Of a DNA stretch of 64,000 nt, positions 39,190 through 45,520 are shown in pieces; position 1 is the stretch's first letter, and each line of letters begins with the position of its first letter. This DNA comes from Tepidanaerobacteraceae bacterium. GTDB lineage: Bacteria > Bacillota > Thermosediminibacteria > Thermosediminibacterales > Tepidanaerobacteraceae. The position numbers and the translations under genes were made by a program. Location of the stretch: assembly GCA_024655905.1 (NCBI GenBank), contig JANLFP010000008.1:1-64000 (forward strand), given 5' to 3'. The notes under the pieces are model-generated. The model was not told where the DNA came from, made no database searches, and saw nothing but the letters and a program-made list of their open reading frames with translations.

Positions 39190-39651
39190 CTATCTTTTTG
39201 AAGTAGCCTTGGGAAAGTGCCACACCAGAGCCTTTAAAGGTTCTTTTGATTCCCTGAGATTTTCCATAGTTTCTTTTAAAGATTCCCTAACCTTGATTTC
39301 TTTGACGGCTTCTCTAAAGTCTATTACCTTTTCGCTGGCAGAATCATCGCGGTGGTTATCATCTTCACCGATTTTGAAGGTTTCATCAAAAAATTTCTCC
39401 GCATTCTGCATTATCTCTTCATCTGCGGTACTTTCCCTCATCGTCGGCAACTCCTCAGTTCTCAATGGTTGCGATATCATTTTATCTTGAATTACATCCC
39501 GACCGCCAGCCTTATTTATTTTTGGATGATTCCCAATATTTTTCTCCAAAAAAATCGAAAGCCCTAAAACGTTGGTCAATAAAAGCATATATACAAGAGA
39601 TGATTTGCCCACATTTCCCGAACCGGTTATAACATCCTGAAAACTTGCCAT
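39190..39651 (-). CDS. Hypothetical protein with Walker-A-like N terminus and one hydrophobic segment
   Basis: A 153-residue protein not recognised. Near the start GSGNVGKSS fits a Walker A loop (GxxxxGKS), but it is followed at once by a hydrophobic stretch (LVYMLLLTNVLGLSIFL), not the usual beta-alpha fold, so nucleotide binding is doubtful. The rest is charged and helical with Lys/Glu repeats. AGGGGGGG stands seven bases before the ATG. It opens the sporulation islet. The 270 bases upstream to ypeB hold no gene; CCGCC/GGCGG arms there could pair. Confidence 0.6.
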   Translation of the reverse strand: MASFQDVITGSGNVGKSSLVYMLLLTNVLGLSIFLEKNIGNHPKINKAGGRDVIQDKMISQPLRTEELPTMRESTADEEIMQNAEKFFDETFKIGEDDNHRDDSASEKVIDFREAVKEIKVRESLKETMENLRESKEPLKALVWHFPKATSKR

Positions 39652-39921: not shown

Positions 39922-41304
39922 TTACATAGTCATAGTTCCTTTTTCGGTTTCTACGATCTTCAGTATCTGTTCTTCCAATCCGTTTTCAGCATTTATATAA
40001 ACTAAATACCTTTCATCTTTCAAATTGCCGTCTACTTCATAACACAGCTTTTCTTTCATTGCAGAATCGGGAATTAATGCGAGCCTTATTCTATTTATTT
40101 TCAAATTTTTATTTATTTTATTCACCACTTCGCTTTTGGAAATTTTTATATGAGGAAGACTTCTCGTCCTATGAAACGTCAGGTAGCCGGCACCGTCAAA
40201 CCCAACTATCTGACCGTTGTCCAGCGCCACTTCGACCTTGATAAAATCAGGATAAAGCAGTATGTCATTCAAAATTGGAACAAAAGTTATGGTGATTGTG
40301 CCGTCCTGGGTCAGCGACCCGGTAGCTTCCATTCCGGCAAATCCCCTTGAACTCAAGAATGCTCTTGCCCGGTCAACCGATGCTTTCAAATCAATTTTTT
40401 GCGGTCCAATTGCTCTTGTATTTAAATACCATATGACATTACCGCCCTTTTCACTGACATCCATCATTACTTCAGGAGCACTTGCACCTTTCCTGGTTAA
40501 TTCCACACTATAAGCCGGTATGTTTCCCCTGGCCCTTCCTGCAATGCCTGTATCATATCGATATTTATCCGGGTTGTCAACAAAATCGGCTGCAATTTCT
40601 TTCGCCTTGGATTCTGTTATTGCCGAACCGGTAACACCCATTGGTTTTACATTTTCCACATGGTCTGAAAATGGCCCATCATATGTTATCGTAGGCGCCT
40701 CTTCTTTTAATTTCTGGTCAATTACGGCAAATTTATCAGCCATAGCCTGAGGAAGTTTACTCATTTTGCCCGCCGCATAAGCTCTGTTTTCCCATTTTAT
40801 TCTACCCGCAGCCACATCATTTTGGAGTTCCCGGAGTTTTCGGCTTAAATCCTGAGAATATTTTTTAAAATTCTCCATTTTTTTCCATTCATCTGTTGTG
40901 ACCTCTTCGCCATTCACTATCTTTTTAGAAAGACTGTATGAAAAGTCTCCCAACTGAGCGAAGAATTTTTGGCTGTTGGTCATGTCCCTCTGGCCAAGCG
41001 GAAGTTGAGAAAGGCTTGTCCTGGCCCCTTCCGCCTGATGCCATATGGTCGTGAAGGTCATTATTCGCTGGGCGTCGGAAGAAGTCACAAGGCTTTTTGA
41101 AATAAGCAGATTCAAATTGTTAACCTGATCTATTAATTCAAAAAAGCCCCTTTGATATGAAGCTTCAAGGGCGTTTTCCGCTGAATACGCCCTTTTTGAA
41201 ATCGACCAGAAACCGAATATTATCCCCCCTGCCAGCAAAATGCCGATTATCCAGAAATATGCTCTTTTCAAATCAACCCCTCCAAATCTATTTTCCAAAT
41301 ACAT
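39922..41304 (-). CDS. ypeB: Germination protein YpeB
   Basis: A 460-residue spore protein needed to hold and stabilise the cortex hydrolase SleB. After an N-terminal membrane helix (about 14-32) comes the helical YpeB domain (to about 200), then three PepSY-like repeats (about 215-450), for example SKAEVVNKINK-type and YLVYINAENG. The sleB gene lies directly upstream with a 17-base overlap, the standard sleB-ypeB arrangement. Confidence 0.92.
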   Translation of the reverse strand: MYLENRFGGVDLKRAYFWIIGILLAGGIIFGFWSISKRAYSAENALEASYQRGFFELIDQVNNLNLLISKSLVTSSDAQRIMTFTTIWHQAEGARTSLSQLPLGQRDMTNSQKFFAQLGDFSYSLSKKIVNGEEVTTDEWKKMENFKKYSQDLSRKLRELQNDVAAGRIKWENRAYAAGKMSKLPQAMADKFAVIDQKLKEEAPTITYDGPFSDHVENVKPMGVTGSAITESKAKEIAADFVDNPDKYRYDTGIAGRARGNIPAYSVELTRKGASAPEVMMDVSEKGGNVIWYLNTRAIGPQKIDLKASVDRARAFLSSRGFAGMEATGSLTQDGTITITFVPILNDILLYPDFIKVEVALDNGQIVGFDGAGYLTFHRTRSLPHIKISKSEVVNKINKNLKINRIRLALIPDSAMKEKLCYEVDGNLKDERYLVYINAENGLEEQILKIVETEKGTMTM

Positions 41305-41788
41305 GTCTGCCTATCTGGGTCATTACGCGTCTAGTCCATACCCATGGGCTCACCCATTTGTATGGGTTCCAGAAATAAAGGCTTCCATAAGTGGGATCCC
41401 ACCCATTAAGCGCTTCCCGCGCTGCATTGAAATTACTTCGGCTTGGATATGAAGCCCATATCTGCCCGTTGCTAACAGATTCAAAAGCTCCCGGTTGGAA
41501 TATTACCCCGGCCACTGTCGGAGGAAATTTTGGATGCTTTGCCCGGTTTAAAATTACCGCAGCTACTCCGACCTGCCCCGGAAAGGGTTCACCTCTAGCC
41601 TCGCCTGACACCAACCGTGCGAGAAGCATGTAGTCGCCGTTCCATGAAGAAACGGCATAATCTTCCGTTCTTGCTTGCAAAGTGCGTCTAGCAATATTTC
41701 TGCTGCAAAATAAAAATATACTCAACGGAATCAAAACAACCAATAAGATTGATATTGACCTGCGAGCTCTCATTAATAAAAACACCAC
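41288..41788 (-). CDS. sleB: Spore cortex-lytic enzyme SleB, short form
   Basis: A 166-residue protein with an N-terminal signal or anchor (about 8-30) and a Hydrolase_2 domain (about 50-166). GEARGEPFPGQVGVAAVILNR in pieces, and NPYKWVSPW near the end, are family marks; the first Glu of GEARGE is the expected catalytic residue. Bacillus SleB also has a peptidoglycan-binding domain at its N terminus, which is missing here. The ATG has AAGGTGG upstream. Confidence 0.9.
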   Translation of the reverse strand: MVFLLMRARRSISILLVVLIPLSIFLFCSRNIARRTLQARTEDYAVSSWNGDYMLLARLVSGEARGEPFPGQVGVAAVILNRAKHPKFPPTVAGVIFQPGAFESVSNGQIWASYPSRSNFNAAREALNGWDPTYGSLYFWNPYKWVSPWVWTRRVMTQIGRHVFGK

Positions 41789-41837
41789 CTTGCTTTTTTT
41801 TTTTTAGTTTATGACTTTTTTAAATCATTATTCCGGC

Positions 41838-41866
41838 ACCTTTTAACGCCTTTCATTCATATAATA
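41838..41866 (+). promoter_or_regulatory. Sigma-K-like promoter before the first tiny membrane protein
   Basis: AC at 41838-41839, 18 bases, then CATATAATA (41858-41866). The sigma-K consensus is AC-N17-CATANNNTA, so only the spacer is one base long. The start would lie about 25 bases before the TTG of the gene. Confidence 0.45.
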
Positions 41867-41897
41867 TTTTAGAAAAGCACTTTAAGGAGGGGATCCT

Positions 41898-42044
41898 TTG
41901 ATTAAAGAAAATAATAAAAAAGCCCCCCCAACCAGCCCTAACCCTTACACACTTTTTCTTATTCTGATACTTTTAATTAATTCGACAGGAAGCACATGTA
42001 TTTTTAAAAAAAATAAAAAAAATACTTCGGGACCGGGAGGGTAG
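41898..42044 (+). CDS. Tiny membrane protein 1 of the LFLILILL set
   Basis: A 48-residue protein starting at a TTG with AAGGAGG upstream. Residues 1-17 are polar and Pro-rich, residues 18-27 read YTLFLILILL, and a basic, Gly-ended tail follows. The hydrophobic core repeats in three other small genes here (42377, 43469, 43597). Such tiny single-helix proteins recall the small spore-membrane proteins of Bacillus (YjcZ/SspO-size proteins), but no family can be named. Four bases separate it from the next gene. Confidence 0.65.
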   Translation: MIKENNKKAPPTSPNPYTLFLILILLINSTGSTCIFKKNKKNTSGPGG

Positions 42045-42047
42045 AAA

Positions 42048-42359
42048 ATGAAAATTCAAACGCTGGCAGAAGACGATCTGCAGATTTTAAAGGCCATAAA
42101 ACCTTTCATGAGTTCCAAAGGCCAGGGAATTATTGATGCATTCGTTACTGTAATGAATATTTTCAGACCATCGGAGCCTCAACAAAAAATAAATATTGAT
42201 GCTCTCGTAAATTTTTTAACGATCATGAATGAAACTTATGAAAATAATAAAGCTCATCAAAAGGCAGATATAGACAAAAATGACCAGCAAAACGAGACTA
42301 AGTCTCAAGATGTAGAAAATCTATTGAATGTGCTTGCAGATAAAAAATTACCCAACTGA
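42048..42359 (+). CDS. Hypothetical protein of the sporulation islet
   Basis: A 103-residue protein with ILKAIKPFMSSKGQGIIDAF and INIDALVNFLTIMN helices and a polar C-terminal tail. No domain is recognised. GGGAGG lies seven bases before the ATG. A similar helix-and-tail layout appears in the 121-residue protein at 42872. It is part of a five-gene plus-strand set with the tiny proteins and a YbaB homologue. Confidence 0.6.
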   Translation: MKIQTLAEDDLQILKAIKPFMSSKGQGIIDAFVTVMNIFRPSEPQQKINIDALVNFLTIMNETYENNKAHQKADIDKNDQQNETKSQDVENLLNVLADKKLPN

Positions 42360-42376
42360 TGCGAGGAGGTGCTGAC

Positions 42377-42499
42377 GTGGACAATAGAGCTGTATTCTCA
42401 CTCTTTTTGATACTTATTTTGCTGTTTTTTTCCGATGGCAAATTAGCAAAAGAAACTGCCGATTCAAAAAAGACCGAACCGTCTGTTACTTCAAAATAA
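42377..42499 (+). CDS. Tiny membrane protein 2 of the LFLILILL set
   Basis: A 40-residue protein starting at GTG, with GAGGAGGTG upstream. Residues 8-18 read SLFLILILLFF and the tail is polar (SDGK, then Lys- and Glu-rich). It lacks any other feature and was found only by reading the gap between neighbouring genes. Confidence 0.65.
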   Translation: MDNRAVFSLFLILILLFFSDGKLAKETADSKKTEPSVTSK

Positions 42500-42577
42500 T
42501 TTTTAGGGCTAACAGCCCTAATTTTTGTTCATTTTTCACATTTCGCAAACATATACATAATTACGGGAGGTGTAAAA

Positions 42578-42871
42578 ATGCTCGGTGATATGGAAAAAAT
42601 GGCTAAAATTTTTCAGGATGAAATAATTCATTTAAAAGAGCAGTTGAAAAATGCTCATTTCACGGAGATATCTTCTGACGGCCTGGTAACTATTACTGCA
42701 AATGGGCTTGAGGAAATTGTAAAAGTCAATATACAACTTAACGATTTGAATCCAGAAATTAAGCACTATATAGAATGTTCGACAGTCGAAGCCACCAATA
42801 AAGTACTCGCTGAAGTAAAAGAGCACTTAAAACAGAAATTCTCAAATACAGGCCTATTTGGAGGGATATAA
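42578..42871 (+). CDS. YbaB/EbfC-like nucleoid-associated protein
   Basis: A 97-residue protein whose MEKMAKIFQDEI, SSDGLVTITANGLEEIVKVNI and LEEIV core match the YbaB/EbfC fold, a small DNA-binding protein that forms dimers. The usual chromosomal ybaB lies next to recR and dnaX, so this copy in a sporulation islet is likely a paralogue. It stops where the TTG of the next gene begins. Confidence 0.75.
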   Translation: MLGDMEKMAKIFQDEIIHLKEQLKNAHFTEISSDGLVTITANGLEEIVKVNIQLNDLNPEIKHYIECSTVEATNKVLAEVKEHLKQKFSNTGLFGGI

Positions 42872-43237
42872 TTGGCTGAAAGCGATAGCAATATAAGGAC
42901 CGATCTTTTGAGCACGATAATGGATGTCATTCATGGAAGGCGAGGTCAGAGCATAAATGAGCTGGTGAGCTTGTTGGCTCTTAGCAATCTGCTGGGTATC
43001 ATAAGCTTTTTGAATTCTCAGGACATTAAACTTGACCTCGGTTCCTCAAAATCCAGCAATGCGGATTTGAAAGAAATGGCCATGAACCTTTTGGGCTCTA
43101 TGGGTGGTGGATCTTCCGATAAAAAAATAAATCCAGCCATGCTTCTAAATCTCTTAAAGACCATGTCTTCTGGCGAAGGAGCATCCTCAGAGTCAAAGAG
43201 CAGTGAAAAAAGCGAAAACAAGCCTAAAAACAACTAA
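42872..43237 (+). CDS. Hypothetical low-complexity-tail protein of the sporulation islet
   Basis: A 121-residue protein starting TTG directly after the YbaB-like stop; GGAGGG is eight bases upstream. The first half is helical with a hydrophobic patch (LVSLLALSNLLGIISFL), the second half has MAMNLLGSMGGG and NPAMLLNLLKTM helices and ends in a Ser/Lys/Glu-rich tail. No domain is recognised. It is the last gene before a strong terminator. Confidence 0.6.
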   Translation: MAESDSNIRTDLLSTIMDVIHGRRGQSINELVSLLALSNLLGIISFLNSQDIKLDLGSSKSSNADLKEMAMNLLGSMGGGSSDKKINPAMLLNLLKTMSSGEGASSESKSSEKSENKPKNN

Positions 43238-43248
43238 TCGAGTAGGTC

Positions 43249-43277
43249 AACGCCGCATAAATTATGCGGCGTTTTTT
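43249..43277 (+). terminator. Terminator after the sporulation islet plus-strand genes
   Basis: AACGCCGCATAA and its complement form the stem, followed by TTTTTT. It lies 12 bases past the stop of the 121-residue protein gene. Confidence 0.9.
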
Positions 43278-43356
43278 CCCTCACAGACTTTTATATAACT
43301 TTTGGTGTAAAAACCACATATGGGTGGGCATTCTGCAGTCGGGGCGGGGCAGCGTT

Positions 43357-43412
43357 TAGAAGTTTCAGCCCATGCCGGGCACGCTAGAAGTTTCAGCCCA
43401 TGCCGGGCACGC
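43357..43412. repeat. 28-bp tandem direct repeat, two copies
   Basis: TAGAAGTTTCAGCCCATGCC followed by GGGCACGC occurs perfectly at 43357-43384 and again at 43385-43412. Each copy carries GCCC and GGGC, so it can also form a small hairpin. It lies in the gap between the two terminators, in no gene. There is no spacer, so this is not a CRISPR. Confidence 0.85.
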
Positions 43413-43417
43413 GGCAC

Positions 43418-43460
43418 GCAAAAAATGAAGCCGGCTTTTAAGCGCGGCTTCATTTTTTGC
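43418..43460 (-). terminator. Terminator after the tiny minus-strand genes
   Basis: GCAAAAAATGAAGCC (43418-43432) and its exact complement (43446-43460) form a 15-base-pair stem; the minus strand then has TTTTTT within the stem. It follows the stop at 43469. Confidence 0.85.
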
Positions 43461-43468
43461 TAAATTTA

Positions 43469-43552
43469 TCAGTCATCAGAGAAGAATAGGAGAATCAGTA
43501 TTAAAAATAAGGCAAATGCCATCCTGCTGTCGAATCCGCCAAATCCTCCCAT
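43469..43552 (-). CDS. Tiny membrane protein 3 of the LFLILILL set
   Basis: A 27-residue protein: a glycine/phenylalanine-rich start (MGGFGGFDSR), then MAFALFLILILLFF and SDD. AAAGGAGGAT is about seven bases before the ATG. Its second half is almost identical to tiny protein 4, 45 bases upstream, so the pair arose by duplication. Such short Gly-rich plus helix proteins resemble YjcZ-type spore proteins. Confidence 0.75.
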   Translation of the reverse strand: MGGFGGFDSRMAFALFLILILLFFSDD

Positions 43553-43596
43553 TTTTATCCTCCTTTCCCTGTTCATCTCGCTTTATACATAAGTTA

Positions 43597-43677
43597 TCAA
43601 TTGTCACCGAAGAATAGGAGTATTAGTATCAGGAACAGTGCAAATGCCATTCTTCCACCAAAGAATCCATCTGCCAT
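43597..43677 (-). CDS. Tiny membrane protein 4 of the LFLILILL set
   Basis: A 26-residue protein, MADGFFGGR then MAFALFLILILLFF and GDN. AAGGAGGTTATCAAAT precedes the ATG. A sigma-K-like promoter lies 33 bases upstream. It is the best of the four for a direct test, as promoter, ribosome site and stop are all plain. Confidence 0.78.
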   Translation of the reverse strand: MADGFFGGRMAFALFLILILLFFGDN

Positions 43678-43709
43678 ATTTGATAACCTCCTTCGTCTTT
43701 AGCCTAATA

Positions 43710-43737
43710 TAATATATGCATTTCATGTGGATGCGGT
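43710..43737 (-). promoter_or_regulatory. Sigma-K-like promoter before tiny protein 4
   Basis: The minus strand has AC at 43737-43736, exactly 17 bases, then CATATATTA (43718-43710), an exact fit to AC-N17-CATANNNTA of the late mother-cell sigma factor. The leader is about 25 bases. Confidence 0.55.
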
Positions 43738-43771
43738 TACTGATGCCTATGTCAATCTACAAAATTAGACT

Positions 43772-43804
43772 GAAAAAAAAAGCAGTACACTGTTATACAG
43801 TTAC
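43772..43804 (-). terminator. Terminator after RNase G gene
   Basis: GTAACTGT pairs with ACAGTGTAC around ATA, with one bulged base, and is followed by a nine-base T run on the minus strand. It lies about 18 bases past the stop. Confidence 0.75.
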
Positions 43805-43822
43805 CGCTTGAATATGAAATAA

Positions 43823-45520
43823 TCATATTAATCTTGCTCTAGCATACGTCCGAAATGTCTTATATATTTCAACCCTAACTTTTTCCCCAATTAGACCCGC
43901 GGCTTCTTCAACATCAATTATATAACCATCTACCCTTGCTATACCATCGCTGGTATTAGAAACATGAACTTCTTCTATGACCACATCCATTATCTGCCCT
44001 TCTCTCACCGGCATGGCTAGGTTTTCGAGCTTTGCCTTGGTTCCCACGGCTTTTATTCTGATTTCTTCAGGGTGTAGGCTATCATTGCCTTTTATATAAA
44101 TATATTTTTCATACCTGCTTTCCATCTGAGAAAGACGATTTCCACCGCTTCCAATAACTACTGAGGCAACCGTAGGGTGAACTTCTAATAATACTGCTTC
44201 TCCCTTCCGTTCACGGAAAACTCTGTCAAGTTCCCTTTCCACCTTTTTTGCGACCGTGTCTTCTGATAAGATCCTTCCTCTGCCTTCACAGTAAGGACAG
44301 GTTTTTTCAAGCACTTCATCCAGGCTCTGGCGAACTTTTTTTCGGGTTATCTCCACAAGACCCAGTTGAGTTAGACCAAGTATATGTGCTCTGGTCCTGT
44401 CTTTTTTCAATTCTTCCGCCAATGTTGAAAGCACCATTTTTTGATGTTCTGGAGAAGTCATGTCGATAAAATCAATGATTATAATACCTCCGATGTCACG
44501 CAGCCTCAATTGTCTGGCTATTTCACGGGCCGCTTCAAGATTTGTCTTTAAAACAGTATCTTCCAGATTCACACTTCCCACAAACTTGCCTGTATTGACA
44601 TCTATGGCGGTCAATGCTTCCGTCCTGTCTATCACAATATATCCGCCGCATTGAAGCCATACTTTGCGCTGAAGGGCCCTATCAATCTCCGATTCAATAT
44701 TGAAATATTCAAAAATTTCCTCCTGGCCTCTATAAAATACTACTCTTTCTTTTAGCGTAGGAGAAATTACCGATAGCATTTCCTGAACCTTTTCGTACTC
44801 ATAAGAACTGTTTATGTAGAACCTGCTGATTTCGGGAGTAAAGAGGTCTCTCACTATTCTAGATATTAGATTCATATCTTTGTAAACAAGTTTTGGAGAA
44901 GCGCATTTTTTTTGTCTTTGAAGTATATCTTCCCATTGCTTTTTTAAAAAATCTATATCTGCTTTTAACTCGTCTTTCCCAATGCCTTCGGCAATGGTCC
45001 TCACTATTACTCCCATATGAGGGGGACGGATGCTTTCCGCCAGGGATTTGAGACGGTTTCTTTCATCATCCTTTTCTATGCGTCTTGATATGCCGACATA
45101 GTCTACAGTCGGCATGAGCACAACATATCGGCCGGGGATAGTAATATTTGTGGATACTCTAGCTCCCTTGGTTCCGATAGGTTCTTTTACTACCTGCACC
45201 AATACATCCTGCCCAATTTTCAGCATATCCTTAATAGATACTTTTTTCAAGCCTTCAATCAGCTCTTCATCTTCGGGCGCCGATGCTTCGAAATTCAGAT
45301 TTATATCCCCTGCGTATAGAAAGGCGTTTTTGCCCAGACCGATATCAATGAAAGCAGCCTGCATGCCCGGCAAAACATTAGCCACTTTTCCCTTATATAT
45401 ATTTCCTACAACTCGCTCATTATTGATTTTTTCCACATAAATCTCCGAAAGTTCCCTTTCTTCCAGAACGGCCAAACGTATCTGGTCTCTGTTTACATCC
45501 ACAACAATCTCCCTTGACAT
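43823..45520 (-). CDS. rng: Ribonuclease G/E family protein
   Basis: A 565-residue endoribonuclease. An S1 domain spans residues 38-120 (GNIYKGKVANVLPGMQAAF), the catalytic DNase-I-like part holds RTEALTAIDVNTG (about 306), and CPYCEGRG near 412 gives the two cysteines that link subunits through zinc. Length exceeds E. coli RNase G by a C-terminal extension of about 80 residues. It follows the radical-SAM-associated gene by 33 bases. In other Clostridia rplU comes next, but here a sporulation islet intervenes. Confidence 0.92.
   Translation of the reverse strand: MSREIVVDVNRDQIRLAVLEERELSEIYVEKINNERVVGNIYKGKVANVLPGMQAAFIDIGLGKNAFLYAGDINLNFEASAPEDEELIEGLKKVSIKDMLKIGQDVLVQVVKEPIGTKGARVSTNITIPGRYVVLMPTVDYVGISRRIEKDDERNRLKSLAESIRPPHMGVIVRTIAEGIGKDELKADIDFLKKQWEDILQRQKKCASPKLVYKDMNLISRIVRDLFTPEISRFYINSSYEYEKVQEMLSVISPTLKERVVFYRGQEEIFEYFNIESEIDRALQRKVWLQCGGYIVIDRTEALTAIDVNTGKFVGSVNLEDTVLKTNLEAAREIARQLRLRDIGGIIIIDFIDMTSPEHQKMVLSTLAEELKKDRTRAHILGLTQLGLVEITRKKVRQSLDEVLEKTCPYCEGRGRILSEDTVAKKVERELDRVFRERKGEAVLLEVHPTVASVVIGSGGNRLSQMESRYEKYIYIKGNDSLHPEEIRIKAVGTKAKLENLAMPVREGQIMDVVIEEVHVSNTSDGIARVDGYIIDVEEAAGLIGEKVRVEIYKTFRTYARARLI

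Follow-up and report, generated by a model that had tools for sequence, protein, structure and literature searches.

The four tiny open-reading frames clustered in the window, by which we mean the whole stretch of 64,000 nucleotides analysed here, are certainly real and strongly conserved genes. Together with three larger neighbors, P103, YbaB2, and P121, they form a cassette that recurs across several families, often divergent from sleB-ypeB, and that is apparently activated late in sporulation. Judging from sequence, its tiny proteins probably help to build the outer layers of the spore.

An earlier note on this DNA had described frames of 48, 40, 27, and 26 residues, lying on both strands and all containing the string LFLILILL, each with a good ribosome binding site. 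The coordinates, lengths, and shared string were all confirmed (Table 1), and each of the four frames is preceded, at an appropriate distance, by a strong Shine-Dalgarno sequence (AAGGAGGGG, GAGGAGGTG, AAAGGAGG, and GAAGGAGGT). A degenerate DNA pattern covering all codons for LFLILILL matched exactly four times in the 3.2-Mb genome, and all four sites fall within 1.7 kb, between 41952 and 43638, on both strands and each inside a short frame with a ribosome site. The pattern had no matches in 100 shuffles of the window, and a reversed control pattern had none in the genome. The codons spelling the string are unlike between the four copies, indicating that these are not copied DNA. The last two frames had been called near copies; they are indeed similar, but the wording was a little strong, as the proteins are 79% identical and the DNA, over 72 nt, is 74% identical.

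Table 1 Features of the cassette and its borders (positions counted from the first letter of the window)
Feature	Position	Strand	Remarks
Sigma-G-like promoter region of sleB-ypeB	41805..41834	-	Pattern GGAATA ... CATAAACTA; matches a sigma-E pattern too
Sigma-K-like promoter of type A gene	41838..41865	+	Pattern AC-N18-CATATAAT
Type A micropeptide, 48 aa	41898..42044	+	Core NPYTLFLILILLINS; TTG start
P103, 103 aa	42048..42359	+	Helical, no known family; N-terminal part like FUS N-terminal domain
Third micropeptide, 40 aa	42377..42499	+	Type B relative with polar tail; GTG start
Terminator-like hairpin	42503..42521	+	After first transcription unit
YbaB2, 97 aa	42578..42871	+	Divergent second YbaB; PF02575, E=4e-12
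P121, 121 aa	42872..43237	+	No known family; conserved cassette member
Terminator-like hairpin	43249..43273	+	After P121
Inverted repeat	43418..43460	-	16-nt arms, 100% complementary; likely terminator after type B genes
Type B micropeptide, 27 aa	43469..43552	-	MGGFGGFDSRMAFALFLILILLFFSDD; ATG start; pN/pS 0.03
Type B micropeptide, 26 aa	43597..43677	-	MADGFFGGRMAFALFLILILLFFGDN; ATG start; pN/pS 0.06
Sigma-K-like promoter of type B pair	43711..43737	-	Pattern AC-N17-CATATATT

All four frames are kept, in the same order, in three genomes of the same family (L087, L088, and L092). Pooled pN/pS was 0.37 for the frame at 41898 and 0.36 for that at 42377, and at 0.03 (43469) and 0.06 (43597) the two type B frames are under strong purifying selection; the larger cassette genes gave 0.23 (P103), 0.18 (P121), and 0.29 (YbaB2). 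Among the loci compared, the eight residues LFLILILL are spelled in 121 synonymous ways at the DNA level, which, with the low pN/pS, indicates that the peptide sequence itself is kept.

By alignment, the peptides fall into two families. Type A comprises proteins of 46-72 aa with NPYxLFLILILL, while type B comprises peptides of 25-36 aa with a Gly/Phe-rich start, often an Arg or Trp before the core, the core F-A-(L/I/V)-LFLILILLFF, and acidic last residues such as GDN or ADD. The peptide at 42377 matches the type B HMM with E=4.4e-7. Of 396 genomes searched in the phylum, 93 gave matches to that HMM, with up to nine in one genome, which upholds the claim of an expanded family. A pattern scan of GTDB yielded ten true LFLILILL carriers; 22 further loci from that scan proved on translation to be chance and were ruled out. 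Among the carriers with names are Tepidanaerobacter sp. DTU063 and GT38, other Tepidanaerobacteraceae, a Thermosediminibacterales bacterium, and Thermoanaerobacterales bacterium 50_218. Types A and B, P103, and P121 have no credible family in Pfam, NCBIfam, or PADLOC, and 27 type B members gave no NCBIfam match. Literature searches returned one irrelevant match for the string LFLILILL and none for "tiny transmembrane protein" with spore.

The suggestion in the note that the peptides are spore-related gained support from their distribution, as they are nearly restricted to spore formers. SpoIVA was found in 336 of 398 genomes and in 91 of the 93 with type B matches (78.4 expected); it is missing from two of the 93 type B genomes and from two of the 94 with FUS (14.6 expected each), in both cases the same two incomplete genomes, which are 75% and 61% complete. 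Since the genomes compared are related and the counts are not independent, the P values for these comparisons are indicative only. The main text of a Moorella spore proteome study names no such protein.

In other families, outside the class of the window, the NPYxLFLILILL module sits at the C-terminal end of proteins of about 105-125 aa, here called FUS. Their N-terminal domain (xxLxSFRPYLGPRG...) is similar to P103, which is encoded next to type A in the window. Profile comparison gave E=1e-9 and a probability of 96% for the module, while the likeness of the N-terminal domain to P103 was modest (hhalign E=1e-4, probability 57%). At E<=0.01 the FUS HMM had matches in 94 of the 398 genomes, 48 of which fell below 1e-8, the weak matches including plain type B and type A sites; of the 48 genomes with strong FUS matches, 36 also have type B matches, compared to 11 expected. 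Three genomes of one family (L168-L170) have a separate type A gene followed by three P103 copies and P121, and YbaB2 was recognized in L168.

In six species of one genus (L122, L123, L124, L125, L127, and L134), the FUS gene is interrupted by an in-frame TGA whose position, between the N-terminal domain and the LFLILILL module, is common to all six; no in-frame ATG, GTG, or TTG stands before the core. The part 3′ of the TGA evolves as protein (pS 0.28, pN 0.01), and two further species of the genus (L129 and L132) are without the stop. The six loci also carry one and the same stretch that can form a hairpin and ends in T7, and selB is present, yet the residue at the TGA position is not Cys in relatives. 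Recoding, slippage, a non-AUG start, and a split gene are the candidate explanations.

The surroundings of the four frames were as the note had named them, namely a YbaB-like gene, two genes without a family, and the adjoining sleB and ypeB. YbaB2 scores 46.6 bits against PF02575, above the gathering score of 25.5, and 48.2 bits against the NCBIfam equivalog, just below the cut-off of 49.45; the canonical YbaB is encoded on another contig of the genome (E=1.4e-35). PDB sequence searches with P103 and P121 gave chance matches only, and their AlphaFold models are helical and of low confidence; a Foldseek hit of P103 in the PDB (best E=3.5) was discarded, and with an hhalign probability of 32% on one stretch we do not claim the two proteins as paralogues. 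SleB itself (41288-41788, -) is short, matching only positions 74-201 of the 201 of its profile, and its N-terminal peptidoglycan-binding part is apparently missing. Behind ypeB, at 39190-39651 (-), lies an uncharacterized, fast-diverging gene of 153 aa that occupies the same place in most relatives.

Within the class of the window, the cassette order is, with losses, sleB-ypeB (divergent), type A, P103, the 42377 peptide, YbaB2, P121, type B, and rng. Elsewhere, FUS directly adjoins sleB-ypeB in ten loci (L102, L146, L149, L150, L152, L154, L159, L161, L163, and L164), and P121 stands between the two in four (L147, L148, L151, and L153). The cassette is also found apart from sleB in several families (L136-L145, L155, L165, and L167), where the order YbaB2-P121-FUS is kept in L165 and L167 and FUS is accompanied by two to four tandem type B genes in L136, L139, L140, L142, L143, and L145. 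No paper on the cassette was recognized among those retrieved on sleB-ypeB neighbors. Beside FUS in two families with the cassette away from sleB, we also observed a murF-like Mur ligase gene (L155, 6291-7739; L165, 8186-9661).

Two promoter patterns stand back to back between sleB and the type A gene in the window, a sigma-G-like (forespore) and a sigma-K-like (mother-cell) one. Across loci, the sigma-K-like pattern AC-N16..18-CATANNNT was present upstream of 14 of 18 type A, 22 of 38 FUS, and 21 of 45 type B genes, compared to 0.3-0.7 per set expected from shuffles (type A 0.26), and in a second type B set from other loci it was present in 14 of 26 against 0.44 expected, with the reservation that these calls are consensus matches and that sigma-K and sigma-E sites are similar. 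Controls gave 3 of 160 for neighboring genes and 1.7% for random 110-base stretches. About 40% of the genes are without a sigma-K-like match, some of them being later genes of tandem arrays. The sigma-E pattern was absent upstream of the type A, FUS, and type B sets (0/45 and 0/26 for type B). None of the sleB upstream regions of 32 loci had a sigma-K match, while a relaxed sigma-G-like pattern was found in 19 of the 32 (1.2 expected), a pattern that belongs to sleB and not to the cassette. Sigma-70-type promoters in the region were not above shuffles. Sigma-K is encoded in the genome, and according to PMC517825 the spore formers surveyed in that paper conserve the residues through which sigma-E and sigma-K recognize the -35 box. 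An exact 28-base tandem duplication (43357-43412) lies in the space that separates the two convergent transcription units.

Several known systems bear comparison with the cassette. YjcZ of Bacillus (tiny_TM_bacill, TIGR01732) is likewise a tiny protein of similar length with a single segment, and has a Gly-rich start before its hydrophobic stretch. The TIGR01732 model matched no type B site at E<=1 in six carrier genomes (G000, G094, G288, G352, G194, and G027), and membership of type B in that family was rejected on this ground; type B further differs in its acidic end, its fixed LFLILILL core, and its place in a cassette with a fused relative. The small gene yjcZ is in the sigma-K regulon of B. 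subtilis (PMC517825), whereas for type B sigma-K control is suggested by the promoter matches given above. By analogy, the peptides may work like YjcZ-type tiny coat-stage proteins without being members of that family. SpoVM and other short sporulation peptides resemble type B in their length of about 26 aa, their link to sporulation, and their relation to membranes. SpoVM, however, is an amphipathic peptide under sigma-E, while the type B core is uniformly hydrophobic and the type B genes lack the sigma-E pattern upstream. YbaB2 is by sequence a member of the YbaB/EbfC nucleoid-associated family but, unlike canonical YbaB, is a divergent second copy inside a sporulation cassette. The germination pair SleB-YpeB, although a direct neighbor of the cassette in many families, differs from it in strand and promoter class and has no sequence relation to it.

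Given these results, we favor, with some reserve, the reading that this is a conserved clostridial sporulation cassette of the late, sigma-K-controlled mother cell, whose LFLILILL peptides sit in the outer forespore membrane or coat and pack against one another. Sigma-K would switch on the cassette late in the mother cell, so that type A or FUS and the type B peptides would be made there at the end of sporulation, and the LFLILILL segment would insert either into the outer membrane of the forespore or into the coat layer next to it. The note had spoken of spore-membrane micropeptides beside sleB-ypeB, and a narrow form of that idea, in which forespore-made peptides of the spore inner membrane work with the pair in germination, appears improbable. 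The close and conserved sleB-ypeB neighborhood in many families and the hydrophobic segment would suit it, but the cassette is transcribed away from sleB-ypeB, the sigma-K-like pattern was found for the cassette and never for sleB, the sigma-G-like one for sleB and not for the cassette, and the cassette lies away from sleB at the loci listed above. We replace a description as partners of SleB-YpeB in the spore membrane with that of late mother-cell (sigma-K) spore-envelope peptides.

Whether the segment has a specific partner is a separate matter, since mother-cell genes could also carry it as a plain anchor or filler, with the likeness of types A and B arising from composition or an old duplication; this we regard as rather unlikely. 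In its favor, membrane helices often contain Leu, Ile, and Phe, and the sequences flanking the core are unlike between the two types. A plain anchor would, however, be free to drift among hydrophobic residues, whereas identity across species is 75-78% for the 16-residue segment that holds the motif and only 22-33% for the membrane segments of the SleB and YpeB proteins encoded at these loci, from which we infer a specific partner; the 121 synonymous spellings and the confinement of the four sites to 1.7 kb of the genome also speak against a mere anchor. The simplest partner would be the same segment in other cassette proteins. A highly improbable alternative is that the peptides are toxins of type I toxin-antitoxin systems, which are very small, hydrophobic membrane peptides encoded in tandem and repressed by an antisense RNA. 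Such toxins are of similar size, with a single hydrophobic segment, a charged end, and tandem copies, and in this the peptides resemble them, but searches of 41200-44200 for antitoxin RNAs already described in Rfam gave chance matches only, the region's sigma-70-type promoters did not exceed shuffles while sigma-K-like ones are present, and the module is fused to another domain, syntenic across families, and nearly confined to spore formers.

Under the favored reading of a late mother-cell cassette, segment identity together with the late mother-cell promoters points to assembly in the outer forespore membrane or coat. Type A or FUS and type B peptides would pack through their identical segments, type B would form a hydrophobic layer held by type A or the fused proteins, and P103, P121, and YbaB2 would be soluble structural partners, the whole perhaps serving coat assembly or resistance. 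Tentatively, we put forward the possibility that several different proteins have LFLILILL in common as a motif for sequence-specific packing, and that the cassette is an undescribed sigma-K-stage scaffold of the spore envelope in many clostridia.

Less is known about the spore coats of clostridia than about those of Bacillus, and the smallest genes of the cassette are shorter than common gene finders accept. The cassette is a widespread gene set that, YbaB2 excepted, has no Pfam or NCBIfam family; the cell type and stage that it predicts are clear, and its nearly invariant motif is open to mutation. If structural, the peptides would be among the smallest conserved components of the spore envelope in these bacteria, with several copies per genome. 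The same core also occurs in another setting at L105 (7457-7842, -), in three tandem peptides of 30-49 aa with EA(G)AA(T)LFLILILLVIMTM, which are perhaps a third family.
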